From Pelomonas caseinilytica (GTDB taxonomy: Bacteria; Pseudomonadota; Gammaproteobacteria; Burkholderiales; Burkholderiaceae_C), in contig NZ_JAJTWT010000004.1 in NCBI RefSeq assembly GCF_021353235.1, forward strand, positions 248,001 to 312,000: a stretch of 64,000 bases of DNA, read 5' to 3'. Below, in pieces: positions 56,883 to 62,731 of the stretch. The first letter of the stretch is position 1. The number at the start of each line of letters is the position of its first letter. The notes under the pieces are model-generated. The model did not search any database. It saw only the letters and a list, made by a program, of their open reading frames with translations, and was not told the origin of the DNA. The position numbers and the translations under genes were made by a program.

Positions 56883-57701
56883 TTATTTGACGGCGCCGGC
56901 CGTGAGGCCCGCGATCAGTTGGCGCGAGGAGATGACGAAGAGGACGAGCAGGGGCAGCGTGGCGATGGCCGAGCCGGCCATCAGCGCCCCCCATTCCGTG
57001 CTGGTGGTGCTGAAGAGGCTGCGCAGGGCCAGCGGCAGCGTGTAGTTCTCGGCCGAGCGCATGACGATCAGCGGGTTCATGAAGTTGTTCCATGAACTGA
57101 TGAAGGTGATGAGGCCGAGCGTGCCCAGGGCGGGCTTCATCAGCGGCAGGGCGATGCGCCAGTAGATGCCCAGTTCGCTGGCGCCGTCGATGCGCGCCGC
57201 GTTGAGCAGCTCCCGCGGCACGGTCGAGGCGGCGAACTGGCGCATCAGGAAGATGCCGAAGGCGCTGGCGGCGCCCGGCAGGTACAGCGCCCGGTGGGTG
57301 TCGATCCAGCCCAGGGCGTCCATGACCATGAAGCTCGGGATCATGTTCATGAAACTGGGCACCATCATGGTGGCCATCACCAGGGCGAAGAGGGCCTTCT
57401 TGAAGCGGAACTCCAGCATCGCGAAGGCATAGCCCGCCATGGAGCAGAACAGCAGCGTCAGCGCCGTGGACATCAGGCCGACGTAGAGGCTCCAGCCGAC
57501 GTTCTTCCAGAACGGCAGCCGCGTCGTCAGCACCTTGATGTTGTTCAGCAGCTCGCCGCTGAACCACAGCGGCGGCGGCACGTTGAAGATGTCCGTGCGC
57601 GACTGGGTGGCGAACACGAACATGAAGTAGAAGGGCGCGAGCATGATGAGCGCGCCGACGGCGACGATGGCATAGGCCGCGAACCGGGGCAGCGTCTTCA
57701 T
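56883..57701 (-). CDS. sugar ABC transporter permease (MalG type)
   Basis: A 272-aa inner-membrane permease with six transmembrane segments. The EAA loop that contacts the ATPase is ELLNAARIDGASELGIYWRIALPLMKPALGT. PFYFMFVFATQSRTDIF at the start is usual for the MalG-type subunit. It overlaps the first permease by 4 bp. Confidence 0.94.
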   Translation of the reverse strand: MKTLPRFAAYAIVAVGALIMLAPFYFMFVFATQSRTDIFNVPPPLWFSGELLNNIKVLTTRLPFWKNVGWSLYVGLMSTALTLLFCSMAGYAFAMLEFRFKKALFALVMATMMVPSFMNMIPSFMVMDALGWIDTHRALYLPGAASAFGIFLMRQFAASTVPRELLNAARIDGASELGIYWRIALPLMKPALGTLGLITFISSWNNFMNPLIVMRSAENYTLPLALRSLFSTTSTEWGALMAGSAIATLPLLVLFVISSRQLIAGLTAGAVK

Positions 57702-58594
57702 GCCTGCACCTGCCGGTCGGCGAAGGCCTTGTTCGTGAGCCAGGTCAGCAAGGCGATGAGGCCGAACATGATCCAGGCCAGGGCGCTGGCGCCGCCGAAG
57801 TCGCTGAAGTCGAAGGCCAGGCGGTAGAGGTAGATGGCCACGGTCATGGCCTGCTGGTCGGCGCCGCCCTTGCCGTTGGTGAGGATGAAGGGCTCCTCGA
57901 AGAGCTGCAGGCCGCCGATGATGGACAGCGTCACGCCGAAGAGGATCATGGGCTTGAGCGCGGGTAGCGTGATGCGCCGGAACTGCTGCCAGGCCCCCGC
58001 GCCGTCGAGCCGCGCCGCCTGGTAGAGGTCGTGCGGGATGGTCTGCAGGGCGGCCAGGTAGAGCACGAGGTTGAAACCCACGTAGCGCCAGAACACGATG
58101 AGGGCCACGGCGGGTTTGATGGCCTCGGGCGAGCGCATCCAGTTGATGTGCTCGATGCCGAAGAGGGCATGCAGGGCCTGGTTGACCAGGCCGTAGTCCG
58201 TCGAGAACAGCGAGCCGAACAACATGGCGATGGCGACGGTGGAGGTGATGTAGGGCAGGAAGTAGGCGCCCGAGAAGAGGCCGCGCCAGCAGCCGAAGGA
58301 CTGGTGCAGGAAGACGGCCAGCGGCAGGGCCACGAGGTGCTGCGGCAGGCCTGAGGCCACGGCGAGCCACAGCGTGTTGCGCAGGGCCTTCCAGAACCAG
58401 CCGTCGGTCAGCGCGAACACGAAGTTCGACAGGCCGACGAACTTCATCGACTCGATGCCGCTGGTGGGCTCCCAGGACTGGAAGGCCAGCCAGGCTGAGA
58501 ACACGAGCGGGAACAGGCCGAAGACGGCGAAGAGGATGAGGAAGGGGCTGACCAGGAGGTAGGGGGCCCAGCGGCTGGGGATGCGCAGGGTCAT
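57698..58594 (-). CDS. sugar ABC transporter permease (MalF type)
   Basis: A 298-aa permease with six transmembrane segments. The EAA loop is DLYQAARLDGAGAWQQFRRITLPALKPMI. ATG at 58594 follows GAGGAG. It is encoded after an 802-bp gap from the binding-protein gene; this gap is filled by a long palindrome. Confidence 0.94.
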   Translation of the reverse strand: MTLRIPSRWAPYLLVSPFLILFAVFGLFPLVFSAWLAFQSWEPTSGIESMKFVGLSNFVFALTDGWFWKALRNTLWLAVASGLPQHLVALPLAVFLHQSFGCWRGLFSGAYFLPYITSTVAIAMLFGSLFSTDYGLVNQALHALFGIEHINWMRSPEAIKPAVALIVFWRYVGFNLVLYLAALQTIPHDLYQAARLDGAGAWQQFRRITLPALKPMILFGVTLSIIGGLQLFEEPFILTNGKGGADQQAMTVAIYLYRLAFDFSDFGGASALAWIMFGLIALLTWLTNKAFADRQVQA

Positions 58595-58705
58595 GTGCTC
58601 TCCTCGACTGGTGGGACGGGGTGGTCGGTTGCTTTTGCGGGGCGCCTGATCGCTCGAGGTGGGAAGTCCGAGCGGGTTGCTCTTGCGTGCAGCGTCTTGT
58701 TGCGA

Positions 58706-59347
58706 AGGCCCATGCCGGGAGTTCGCCCCGGCGGGCGACCTACTTTCTGGCCCGCCAGAAAGTAGGCAAAGAGCGGCCCCTGCAAAACCGCCCCTTCGGG
58801 GTGCCCTGCGTGCCTTGCCGCTTGCAAGCGGCAAGTCCCTCGGCAGGCGTCGCGCAGTGCGCAGGCACTGCACTCGGTCCTGCCTCGGTGCGTCGAAGCC
58901 CGGGGCCGCGCCCAACTCGCTTCGTTCACTGCGCTCACTACGCTCAGACAAAGGGGCGCGAAGTCAGTTGTTGAAGCGCGCTGCGCGCGCGCCCCGGGCT
59001 CCTGCGCTTCTCGGCGGTTTAGAAGGGGAAGCCCCAAACAGCCGAAACAGCCAACAGCCAAACGCGCCAGCCGGCTGGTGCCGGCTGTTCCTTCACTCCC
59101 CCTTTGAGCCCGCCGAGGAGCGCAGCACCTTGAGGCCGCGCGCGCAGCGCGCTTCAACAACTGACTCCGCGCAACTGTCTGAGCGCAGCGTAGCGAAGCG
59201 AGTTTTGCGCGGCGCCTCAAGGTGCGAGCACCGCAGGGAACCCCGCCGCGCAGCGGCGGGGCGGGCGGTTCGGGGGCGACTTTTTGCCTACTTTTTGGTC
59301 GCCCAAAAAGTAGGTCGCCCGCCGGGGCGAACTCCCGGCATGGGCCT
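58706..59347. repeat. 642-bp composite inverted repeat within transporter operon
   Basis: The gap from 58595 to 59396 has no convincing gene. Perfect 41-bp outer arms (58706-58746 and 59307-59347) and perfect 30-bp inner arms (58962-58991 and 59138-59167) are joined by imperfectly complementary stretches, and shorter hairpins such as ACTTTCTGGCCCGCCAGAAAGT and CTACTTTTTGG/CCCAAAAAGTAG decorate each side. On RNA from the - strand it would fold into a large hairpin between the binding-protein and permease coding parts, as seen for smaller REP elements in maltose-type operons. Short frames in it have no family resemblance. Confidence 0.85.
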
Positions 59348-59396: not shown

Positions 59397-60668
59397 TCAC
59401 CGGTTCGCCCTATGAACCAGCAACGCCTGCGCATCCGCCAACGCCTGCTCGATCGGCTTGCCGTACTCCAGCACGTTGTCGAGTTCGGCATTGACCACCT
59501 CGTCGGCGAACTTGTGCTGCTTGTGCATCCTCACGACCGGGATGCGCCGTGCCGCGTCGCGCCAAAGCAGGCGTGCACGCTGGCCGCCGAGGAAGGGCAC
59601 GGGCTGGTCGAAGAAGGGGTCGTCCTGGGCCGCCAGGAGCGCCGGGAAGGCATCCTGGGAGCGGAAGGCTTCGAGCTGGCGCTGGCGGTCCAGCGTCAGC
59701 TCCTGGATGAGCTGCCAGGCGAGCGCCTTGCGCTCCGGCGCCGAACGGCGCGGGATGGCGTAGTAGGTGCCGCCGTAGGAGCAGTAGGTGCCCTCGGGCA
59801 ACTGGGCCACCCGCCACTTGCCGGCCGTGCCCGGCGCCACCCAGTTGGCCATCTGGCCGGCCATCCAGCCGCCCGACATCTCGGTGGCCAGGCGCCCGCG
59901 CTTGAGCATCTCCGCCCAGTCGTTGAACCAGACCTCGACACGCGCGTCCAGGCCCTGGCGGCGCACCTGGCGCGCCAGCTCGAAGGCACGCACGAAGCGC
60001 GGCGAGGTCACCTGGGGCCGGCCCTCGCGGTCGAAGAACTGGCTCTCCCCCGGCGGCGTGCCGGCCCGCACGATGATGTCCTTGAGCAGGCGCACGTCAC
60101 CGATCAGGTAGGCGCCGGCCCTGGCCTTGAGCTGGGCGCCGGCGGCGACATAGTCCTCCCAAGACCGCGTCAGGTCGGCCTCCTTCAGACCGGCCTGGGC
60201 GAGCAGGTCCACGCGGTAGAACAGCGAGCCGGGGCCCACGTCGGTCGGCATGGCAACGATGCGCCCCTCGCGGTTGCGCGCCGTCTCGATGGCGAACGGG
60301 ACGAAGCGGTCCTTGAAGCGCTCGGCGCCGAAGGGCTCGGCCGACAGGTCCTCCAGGCCCGACCCCAGCGAGAAGCGGCCGAGGTAGCTGGTCTCCAGCG
60401 CGATGACGTCGGGCAGGTGGCCCGAGGTGGAGAGCGCGGTCGTCATCGCCGTGTGATGGTCGTCGTACTGGCGGCTGATGACCTGGGTGCGCACACCGGG
60501 ATGGCGCTGGCTCCAGCCCTTGAGCACGTCGCGGGCGATGACGTCCACCAGCGGGAAGGCCGCCACGGTCAACGGCGCGGGCTCCGAGGCGCAGGCCAGC
60601 CCGGCCGTACCGCCCGCAGCGGCGGCGGCCAGCAGTTGGCGGCGGGAGATAAACGGCGTGTCGTGCAT
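59397..60668 (-). CDS. sugar ABC transporter substrate-binding protein
   Basis: A 423-aa extracellular solute-binding protein of the sugar type. A Tat-like signal (SRRQLLAAAAAGGTAGLACA) precedes the mature domain; DVIALETSYLGRFS, IVAMPTDVGPGSLFYRVDLL and SYGGTYYAIPRRS match the family. It heads the - strand operon of permeases, GH1 and GH16. A perfect LacI-type palindrome two bases upstream of the ATG at 60668 leaves no room for a normal ribosome site, so the message may be leaderless or start further upstream (TTG at 60725). Confidence 0.9.
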   Translation of the reverse strand: MHDTPFISRRQLLAAAAAGGTAGLACASEPAPLTVAAFPLVDVIARDVLKGWSQRHPGVRTQVISRQYDDHHTAMTTALSTSGHLPDVIALETSYLGRFSLGSGLEDLSAEPFGAERFKDRFVPFAIETARNREGRIVAMPTDVGPGSLFYRVDLLAQAGLKEADLTRSWEDYVAAGAQLKARAGAYLIGDVRLLKDIIVRAGTPPGESQFFDREGRPQVTSPRFVRAFELARQVRRQGLDARVEVWFNDWAEMLKRGRLATEMSGGWMAGQMANWVAPGTAGKWRVAQLPEGTYCSYGGTYYAIPRRSAPERKALAWQLIQELTLDRQRQLEAFRSQDAFPALLAAQDDPFFDQPVPFLGGQRARLLWRDAARRIPVVRMHKQHKFADEVVNAELDNVLEYGKPIEQALADAQALLVHRANR

Positions 60669-60670
60669 GT

Positions 60671-60686
60671 TTGAAAGCGCTTTCAA
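60671..60686. promoter_or_regulatory. LacI-family operator
   Basis: TTGAAAGCGCTTTCAA is a perfect 16-bp palindrome typical of LacI-family regulators of sugar genes. It overlaps the start region of the binding-protein gene. The same site (15 of 16 bp) occurs at 62948-62963 before the second GH16 gene. Confidence 0.85.
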
Positions 60687-61009
60687 GATTGTGCAGTGAT
60701 GCCATGGCCGGCCCCAGCCGAACAAACCCTAGGCCGGCCCTCGGGAGGCGAGCTGCGGGAGGGCGGCCGGCGACGACGCCTCCCTAGAACCCCGTGCGGG
60801 CAACGTTTTGTCACCCTTGCTCCGGGTTTCCACCGGTGACGGTTCGGGCGCGGTTTCGCAAAGTGGTATTCAAGAGGTGATAGCAGTCTCAAACTGGAGT
60901 AATACCAGTTAGAACCAGCTCACGAGCCTGCATGGAGAGGCAGGTCAGCCGCCGGACGGGCCATGCCCGTCCTTCCCAACGTGCCCATGGCCATGCATAG
61001 GACAACCCC
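60687..61009. other. intergenic region upstream of GH18 gene
   Basis: No gene is seen in this stretch. Two inverted repeats lie near its right end: TGGTATT (60864) with AATACCA (60901), and AACTGG (60892) with CCAGTT (60905). They are candidate sites for a GntR-type or other sugar regulator before the GH18 gene. The remainder is GC-rich with no clear motif. Confidence 0.4.
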
Positions 61010-62731
61010 ATGAAGCAGCCCTCCACCGCCATCCCGTCGCACCAGTTGCGCCGCCTCGCCGCCATCACCGCGGCAGCCTTCGCGCTGACCGCCGCAGCCC
61101 ACGCCCAGACCTACCCCGCGTGGGCGCCCGACGTCTACTACACGGCCGGCACGGTCGTGAGCTACAACGGCCACCTCTACAGGGCCCTGGTCAACCAGAC
61201 CGACTACGCCTCGACCGGCTGGAACCCGACCAACACCTCGCTGTGGACCGACCTCGGGGCCACGTCGGGGCCTGCGCCTTCGCCAGCCCCGACGCCCGCG
61301 CCCACCCCGGCACCCACGCCGGCGCCCTCGCCCGCACCCGCTCCGAGCGGCAGCTGCGCGCCGGCCTGGGTCAGCACCAAGGCCTATGGCGGCGGCGAGA
61401 TCGCCAGCGAGGGCAGCACCAACTACAAGGCGAACTGGTGGACCCAAGGCAACGACCCCGCCACCAACAACGGCCCCTCGGGCAGCGGCCAGCCCTGGAC
61501 GTCGCAAGGCGCCTGCTCGGCCTCGCCGAGCCCCAGCCCTTCGCCATCACCTTCCCCTTCGCCATCACCTTCCCCTTCGCCTTCGCCGTCCCCGAGCCCC
61601 GCCCCCGCACCCGGCCTCAGCGACCCCAATGCCAAGTCGGCCACCCAGGCCGGCCGGGCCTACACGGTCTACTACCCGAGCTGGAGCGACAACTGGTTCG
61701 ACGCCACCGGCAAGACCCTGGACCAGGTCTTCCAGGCCAGTAACTTCGCGCGCATCCCGGCCAACTACACCCACGTGGTGGCGGCCTTCGCGCAGCCGAA
61801 TTTCAGCTGGGGCGGCATGGCGGCCAACAACTGGTCGGGCACGGGCATCAACTTCAACGGCCGGCCGTCGGACATCAAGGCGGCCATCGACGTGCTGCAC
61901 GCCCGCAACATCAAGGTCATCCTGGCCGTGGGCGGCGCCACCTACAACAGCTGGAGCACCTTGTCGGCCGAAGGCCACGCCGGCAGCGGACCGACCATCA
62001 CCGCGCTGGCCAACGTCATGAAGGACGTGGGCTTCGACGGCCTGGACGTGGACTTCGAGATCGAGGGCCTGGACGCCTATGCCGGCGCCGTGAAGGCCAT
62101 GCGCAAGGCGGTCGACCTGGCCGGCGGCGGGCGCATCCTCACGGTGGCCGCCTGGTCCACCGGCGCGGACTGCACCGGCGCCACGCAGAACGACCCGCAG
62201 TGCGCCGGCGTGGGCGTGAGCTACTGGGGCGGCAAGGCGGGCCTGGAGCGCCAGCTCGTCAGTGCCTACCCGACGCTGGCCGGCGCCTTCAACATCGTCA
62301 ACATCATGAGCTACGACGCGCGCTACGAGCACTACGACGGCGTGACCGCGTGGAACCAGTACCGCAAGCTCTTCCCGAGCGGCACCATCGTCTCCATCGG
62401 CTTCGAGACGGCCCCCGAAGGCTGGGCCGGCGGCCAACTGGTGGTGAACAACGGCGATGCCCAATGCACCGGCTCGGTCATCCTGCAGAACAGCTACGGC
62501 GCCAACGTCAACCAGCCCTATTCGGTGGAGCGCTACCTGAACGCCGTCACCGGCAGCACCCTGGCCAACCGCAACCCGCGTGACGGCGCCATGCTGTGGC
62601 AGGCGTTGAAGACGGCCTCCGGCAGTTGCGGCAGCGCGCCGCTGGCCACCCCGGGCAGCATCGGCAGGAAGGCCGCGGGCAGCCTGGGCCTGGTGGACGA
62701 CCCCGCGCTGCAGAACGCGCCCTGGAAGTAG
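61010..62731 (+). CDS. secreted chitin-binding GH18 chitinase
   Basis: A 573-aa secreted enzyme. Signal peptide to about residue 32 (AAAHA/Q). Two CBM5/12 chitin-binding modules (about 34-82 and 116-168; for example AWAPDVYYTAGTVVSYNGHLY) are joined by Pro-Thr/Ala and Ser-Pro linkers to a GH18 catalytic domain (about 215-560). The catalytic motif is GFDGLDVDFEIEG (DxxDxDxE), with substrate-binding NIMSYDARYEHYDG. It should cleave chitin or related beta-1,4-linked glycans outside the cell. Confidence 0.93.
   Translation: MKQPSTAIPSHQLRRLAAITAAAFALTAAAHAQTYPAWAPDVYYTAGTVVSYNGHLYRALVNQTDYASTGWNPTNTSLWTDLGATSGPAPSPAPTPAPTPAPTPAPSPAPAPSGSCAPAWVSTKAYGGGEIASEGSTNYKANWWTQGNDPATNNGPSGSGQPWTSQGACSASPSPSPSPSPSPSPSPSPSPSPSPSPAPAPGLSDPNAKSATQAGRAYTVYYPSWSDNWFDATGKTLDQVFQASNFARIPANYTHVVAAFAQPNFSWGGMAANNWSGTGINFNGRPSDIKAAIDVLHARNIKVILAVGGATYNSWSTLSAEGHAGSGPTITALANVMKDVGFDGLDVDFEIEGLDAYAGAVKAMRKAVDLAGGGRILTVAAWSTGADCTGATQNDPQCAGVGVSYWGGKAGLERQLVSAYPTLAGAFNIVNIMSYDARYEHYDGVTAWNQYRKLFPSGTIVSIGFETAPEGWAGGQLVVNNGDAQCTGSVILQNSYGANVNQPYSVERYLNAVTGSTLANRNPRDGAMLWQALKTASGSCGSAPLATPGSIGRKAAGSLGLVDDPALQNAPWK
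61528..61608 (+). repeat. Ser-Pro linker minisatellite
   Basis: An 18-bp unit CCTTCGCCATCACCTTCC repeats, coding Ser-Pro pairs in the interdomain linker of the GH18 enzyme. The array of about 14 Ser-Pro dipeptides may expand or contract by slippage. A Pro-Thr-Pro-Ala repeat is present further upstream (61270-61330). Confidence 0.8.

Follow-up and report, generated by a model that had tools for sequence, protein, structure and literature searches.

The described repeats closest to the element reported here are the BoxC/PIT triplex repeats and the REP/REPIN dimers. BoxC, PIT and TM_ECO carry on one strand a pyrimidine strand, a loop, a purine strand, a short spacer and a second purine strand, an order shared by the conserved ends of our element (hereafter heads), and like the element they are intergenic, patchy in copy number between relatives, and sometimes present as inverted pairs (PMC4666352). 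H. influenzae is named among the genomes with intrastrand triplex motifs; evidence for such triplexes in cells is described there as largely in vitro data, with no in vivo footprint reported for the G/C-rich relative motif (PMC4666352). GTAG REPs, REP dimers and REPINs resemble the element in being intergenic palindromes with GTAG beside a hairpin, in forming inverted dimers, and in being presumed to move in trans (PMC3733652).

The window, the whole 64,000-nucleotide stretch of Pelomonas caseinilytica DNA that was analyzed, contains a nested palindrome between a solute-binding protein gene and two permease genes. The initial annotation had described perfect outer arms of 41 bp and perfect inner arms of 30 bp, and both proved exact: the outer arms (58706-58746 and 59307-59347) are exact reverse complements that extend neither way, the inner arms (58962-58991 and 59137-59166) are an exact inverted match, and a repeat search listed 11 inverted pairs, one of 109 nt (82%) and one of 39 nt (95%) among them. 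A chance origin of the arms is excluded, because a 37-base arm stretch, allowing up to three mismatches, occurs only at its two places in the window and not at all in 100 shuffles, and because the RNA folding z-score of the palindrome is -28 (20 shuffles). The placement between binding-protein and permease genes was likewise confirmed, by open reading frames (ORFs) matching PF01547 and PF00528, all on the - strand; downstream of the element lie the two permease genes and a family 1 glycosidase, also all on the - strand. Comparison of the flanks of copies showed that end-like sequence extends past the 41-bp arms, with GGTTGCTTTTGC-type ends at 58627 and 58674. Rfam gave no matches in the window, and its seven matches in six loci were all below gathering score. 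Adjoining the sugar operon, window positions 61010-62731 encode a family 18 glycosidase with a CBM5/12 module. The features of the locus are as follows.

56883-57707, - strand: second permease gene (PF00528)
57698-58594, - strand: first permease gene, downstream of the element (PF00528)
58627-58705, + strand: end-like sequence outside the arm, holding two GGTTGCTTTTGC-like ends (58627-58638 and 58674-58686) that may be nested; candidate element end, from flank comparison
58706-59347, no strand: palindromic element core, two convergent heads and a center; one of 16 copies
58714-58732, + strand: left head, hairpin 1 (GCCGGG..CCCGGC)
58739-58766, + strand: left head, hairpin 2 (CCTACTTTCTGG/CCAGAAAGTAGG)
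58767-58776, + strand: left head, mirror purine tract CAAAGA, a candidate third strand, with GCGG, which is complementary to the loop region of hairpin 2
58811-58892, no strand: extra module of ~80 bp (element positions 106-187), outside the matches of most other copies
58962-58991, + strand: left inner arm, 30 bp, exact
59137-59166, - strand: right inner arm, 30 bp, exact
59274-59286, - strand: right head, mirror purine tract CAAAAA, with GTCGCCC as complement of the loop GGGCGAC
59287-59314, - strand: right head, hairpin 2 (CCTACTTTTTGG/CCAAAAAGTAGG)
59321-59339, - strand: right head, hairpin 1
59397-60725, - strand: solute-binding protein gene, upstream of the element (longest ORF, candidate start; PF01547, PF13416)

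The palindrome is one copy of a dispersed and probably mobile repeat. Searching its own genome (5.98 Mb, 40 contigs) for further copies, as the initial annotation had proposed, gave 68 local matches that resolved into 16 dispersed copies, and matches were present in all 20 genomes of the genus that were searched, in one only at E 2e-4 and in another at best 5e-11. Two heads were paired by script in 15 of the 16 copies, and the outer hairpins lie 428-662 bp apart (536-587 bp in 12 copies, 626 bp in the window copy). Most copies match element positions 188-642 and a piece of 1-105, and one (L002) covers the extra module at 106-187. Subsequent comparisons used 14 copies, leaving aside L008, with no second head at the stringency of the script, and L016, with no recognizable center. 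Averaged over the 75-nt arms of these 14, left and right were 85% identical when they came from one copy and 86% when they came from different copies (4083 of 5000 permutations as high), and like arms of different copies averaged ~91%. Arms within a copy being no more alike than arms of different copies, the long palindrome was ruled out as a conserved object. Conservation lies in each head, and the long palindrome results from two related heads in facing orientation. Another palindrome family, unrelated to this one (CACAGAGGCACAGAG..CTCTGTG), with 322 overlapping pattern matches in the genome and members in 12 of the 20 genus genomes, occupies two junctions (in G001 and G008) that are filled by the large element in other species.

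Alignment of 57 heads gave a usual order of hairpin 1 with a TCG-bearing loop, GGCGACC, hairpin 2 (TACTTT-variable-AAAGTA), GGC, a purine tract and a final stretch that in most of these heads is complementary to the hairpin-2 loop; on the reverse strand GTAGG adjoins hairpin 1. The purine tract is the purine strand of the hairpin-2 stem read backwards. Over 127 distinct heads this mirror rule held at 381 of 394 pyrimidine-tract positions, against a mean of 0.71 and a maximum of 0.756 in 500 shuffles, and the tract scored 0.98 as a mirror copy and 0.73 as a direct copy. The two sides vary together: at the first tract position C occurs with G in 107 heads and T with A in 19, with one departure, and tract lengths are correlated (Spearman 0.83). 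Pairing with the loop averaged 4.39 nt in 66 pairs (shuffled 3.12, maximum 3.53 in 300 shuffles) and 4.45 in 127 pairs (shuffled 3.51, maximum 3.67 in 200 shuffles), two overlapping data sets for which, as for the mirror rule, the shuffles ignore relatedness among heads that are related and in many cases from one genus. The same genome also carries 37 heads of another type, of the form TAACTTT...AAAGTNACCAAA, in 17 convergent pairs of 426-458 bp (places L263-L274 represent this sister family of ~430 bp). These too obey the mirror rule, at 62 of 63 positions against a shuffled 0.69 (maximum 0.84), in 14 distinct heads that have roughly six stems among them, nine heads being from this genome (12 fetched of the 37 places) and five from other loci, and the outer ends of two such copies resemble those of the first family. 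Watson-Crick pairing gives no reason to expect a mirror relation, and R.R-Y triads require one. Both head types hold the three consecutive same-strand, R.R-Y-capable tracts of an intrastrand triplex, with mirror matches of 381/394 and 62/63, and in their natural variants the match between third-strand purines and stem is preserved, which ordinary base pairing leaves unexplained. Each head is accordingly predicted to form a purine-motif intrastrand triplex with a pseudoknot, and the heads look constrained. A possible resemblance of ACCTACTTTCT to the 3' end of 16S rRNA was considered and dropped.

Close relatives carry the window junction both with and without the element. Loci for this junction were examined in 17 of the 20 genus genomes, the other three having only distant permeases (35% identity or less), and 15 of the 17 are from close relatives, this genome counted. 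Among these 15 the element is present in six (G000, G004, G005, G006, G017 and G010, the last on a contig that ends inside the element and shows only the permease side), eight have an empty junction with a gap of 2 or -1 bp, the binding-protein stop overlapping the permease start, and in one (G001) the junction holds a CACAGAGG palindrome unrelated to the element; of the two relatives further off, one has a 13 bp gap and the other an overlap. Fourteen further flank pairs were searched in five relatives, and the nine with flanks close together or filled were inspected, leaving L004, L005, L008, L009 and L015. Eight of these nine had the genes about -25 to +15 bp apart in some relative; at the ninth, one relative had the CACAGAGG palindrome and two had the element. 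Proteins named at other copy sites (10 in all) include two ExbD-like proteins, cobA, cobD and an oligopeptide-type permease, and at one site an ABC ATPase beside a periplasmic binding protein. Judged from sequence, the certain effect in the operon is that the stop/start overlap present in relatives is lost: the element parts the binding-protein stop from the permease start, which would remove any translational coupling. The filled and empty junctions of close relatives are natural pairs for the effect of such an insertion on an operon.

On the gene tree the junction changes between filled and empty four times, at least three of them forced by well-supported forks, and the two states do not cluster (144 of 500 shuffles as low). 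The elements themselves group by genome: in a tree of 30 elements, which leaves 18 of 27 inner branches open and has an unsettled bootstrap and two long branches, the own-genome label changed four times against a shuffled mean of 10.2 (none of 500 shuffles as low). In 11 of 11 comparisons at five shared junctions, the copy in this genome was nearer to another copy of this genome than to the copy at the same junction elsewhere. Junction sharing together with genome-wise grouping means either repeated insertion at favored sites or old insertions homogenized between copies. Target-site duplication was not above control over 22 junction pairs (own 4.18, others 4.07; 632 of 2000 permutations as high), and a GATGAGC duplication that looked convincing at one junction was rejected on the same comparison; one junction shows GATGA in two species. 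A decayed mobile element had been suggested at the outset. The mobile part of that description is largely supported, by the 16 copies, the empty sites and the grouping by genome; decay is not supported, as the heads look constrained.

The distribution of heads is patchy, from Burkholderiales to Pasteurellaceae and Clostridia. The exact head motif occurred in at least 113 stretches over GTDB genomes, and the 80 loci among the matches listed were mostly from Burkholderiales and Rhodocyclaceae, with others from Pasteurellaceae, Pseudomonas, Lysobacter, Aliagarivorans, Oscillospiraceae and other Clostridia, many of them in metagenome bins, where contigs may be misassigned. Most of these 80 listed loci show one strict head, and all 16 strict pairs within 700 bp converge. 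The exact motif was found in 2 of 274 genomes of the class, this genome included, and a looser motif in 10 of 120 genomes of the family, including this genome and one of its genus; both counts are lower bounds, because heads with another spacer exist. Searches of E. coli and of phages with the element gave no match, the head motif was present in two IMG/VR contigs, and partial matches occurred in two plasmid records, or three with the Haemophilus element. In the center of two Pasteurellaceae copies (L106:1960-2660 and L138:2340-3050) are AAGTGCGGT-like sequences, which resemble DNA uptake signals. In a Pelomonas bin (L195:950-3450) and a Rhodocyclaceae bin (L085:4668-6492) two heads flank 1.6-1.75 kb with ORFs (217 aa with RNAYAHG, 87 aa and 123 aa; 374 aa) for which Pfam gave no significant family; the arrangement looks as though genes had moved into the center of the element. 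Around the 80 listed loci, inspection by eye of the larger of 141 ORF clusters revealed no recognizable shared neighbor protein: the largest cluster is made up of reading frames of the element itself, 94 of its 122 ORFs overlapping a head, and the second largest resembles ABC-transporter ORFs, 10 of 26 within 450 bp of a head. No transposase-bearing parent transposon with shared ends was seen, and a literature search by sequence string and topic, judged on titles and abstract openings, returned no recognizable account of the element.

The account that we favor, with moderate confidence, is that of a dispersed, non-autonomous two-head repeat with triplex-folding heads, which would be moved in trans and settle at tight gene junctions. 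A head that becomes single-stranded, on the lagging strand, during repair or in an extruded cruciform, would fold into a hairpin for which the downstream purine tract would serve as the third strand of an R.R-Y triplex, and pairing of the next few bases with the hairpin loop would lock the triplex. We infer that an enzyme encoded elsewhere would recognize such folded ends and move or copy the element, which may often land or survive at tight junctions, where coding sequence is left unbroken; a polarity or dosage effect in the operon is possible but would be secondary. More tentatively, and with rather less than even confidence, the heads may mark a class of mobile repeats that spans Proteobacteria and Clostridia and has folded single-stranded triplex-pseudoknots as its recognized ends, read by an enzyme yet to be found. 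If so, the mirror covariation would count as evolutionary evidence both for the formation of purine-motif triplexes in living bacteria and for their importance there. The repeat family is a handle for finding the spreading enzyme.

The element might instead act as RNA, its hairpins attenuating transcription or protecting the upstream mRNA so that more binding protein than permease is made, much as the initial annotation had envisaged. The very stable fold (z -28), five terminator-like sites against 1.2 (sd 1.2) in shuffles, the location of 12 of the 16 copies between co-directional genes (by a simple codon-usage gene call) and the transporter genes at several other junctions would all suit such a role. 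No sigma-70-like promoter was found in the gap between the binding-protein and permease genes. However, the other copies lie at unrelated junctions, with three of the 16 convergent and one divergent, so the repeat has no specific tie to binding-protein dosage; of the 11 co-directional copies with an orientable center seven run with transcription and four against; and the operon is kept without the element in 8 of 15 relatives. PIT motifs, moreover, are described as lacking promoter and terminator activity, and a role at the DNA level is favored because RNA is reported to be unable to form purine-motif triplexes (PMC4666352). We therefore consider an RNA role unlikely. Replication stalling, another early suggestion, is compatible with a sequence predicted to form triplexes, and by analogy with BoxC and TM_ECO the element could chiefly be an obstacle to replication or recombination, a stretch of non-B DNA that has persisted by accident and makes its surroundings less stable. 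Triplex-type heads in a long palindrome, the patchy gain and loss at this junction and the reported link of such motifs to instability (PMC4666352) agree with this, but an obstacle alone would leave unexplained both the dispersal of near-complete copies with shared ends and the conservation of head details across phyla, and as the main explanation it seems improbable.

Movement by a resident RAYT (Y1) transposase, as an ordinary REPIN or BIME, would account for two inverted GTAG-bearing heads in a genome that has three matches to the RAYT family PF01797. This link, which had been raised from the sequence at the outset, was not upheld: no head lies within 1.5 kb of the three RAYT loci of this genome, and among the 31 of 40 genus matches examined only two have a head within that distance, a single one on one side. 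RAYT was set aside as the mobilizer, since heads do not flank the loci examined in this genome and the genus, and with a size, loop pairing and mirror tract that are not REP features in the account at hand (PMC3733652), the REPIN/BIME reading is weakened to the point of being quite doubtful. The trans-mobilized two-head repeat remains our preferred reading.

Unlike BoxC, PIT and TM_ECO, the element has heads in which the loop pairs with downstream sequence and which a second hairpin and a fixed GGCGACC/GGC context accompany, and its heads enclose, as a pair, a unit of >500 bp. TM_ECO is G/C-rich and 37 nt long, whereas the heads have A-rich tracts, and they conform only in part to the ITxF loop limit of 1-6 nt (PMC4666352). 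TM_ECO itself, with the pattern CCCTCNCCC N3-6 GGGNGAGGG N3 GGGNGAGGG, was rejected as an identity, the aligned heads carrying CTTTCT/AGAAAG-type tracts. Like MITEs the element is short and dispersed, with inverted ends and no evident gene, but target-site duplication did not rise above control, and no parent transposon was found among the sequences searched. From REPs and REPINs it differs in being a far longer unit with few copies and no RAYT flanked by heads, and in the loop pairing and mirror tract of the head, which do not figure in the account of those repeats consulted here (PMC3733652); the main text of that source does not contain Variovorax, Haemophilus, Burkholderiales, Roseateles, Leptothrix or Cupriavidus as such, and species may appear in it under abbreviated names. 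It shares with REPINs GTAG next to a hairpin and the inverted dimer, all 16 strict pairs among the matches listed being convergent, and departs from them in that, at the loci examined, the repeat does not flank a RAYT gene. Judged by sequence, the head is thus of the intrastrand-triplex kind, and the whole, RAYT flanking apart, is REPIN-like in plan.
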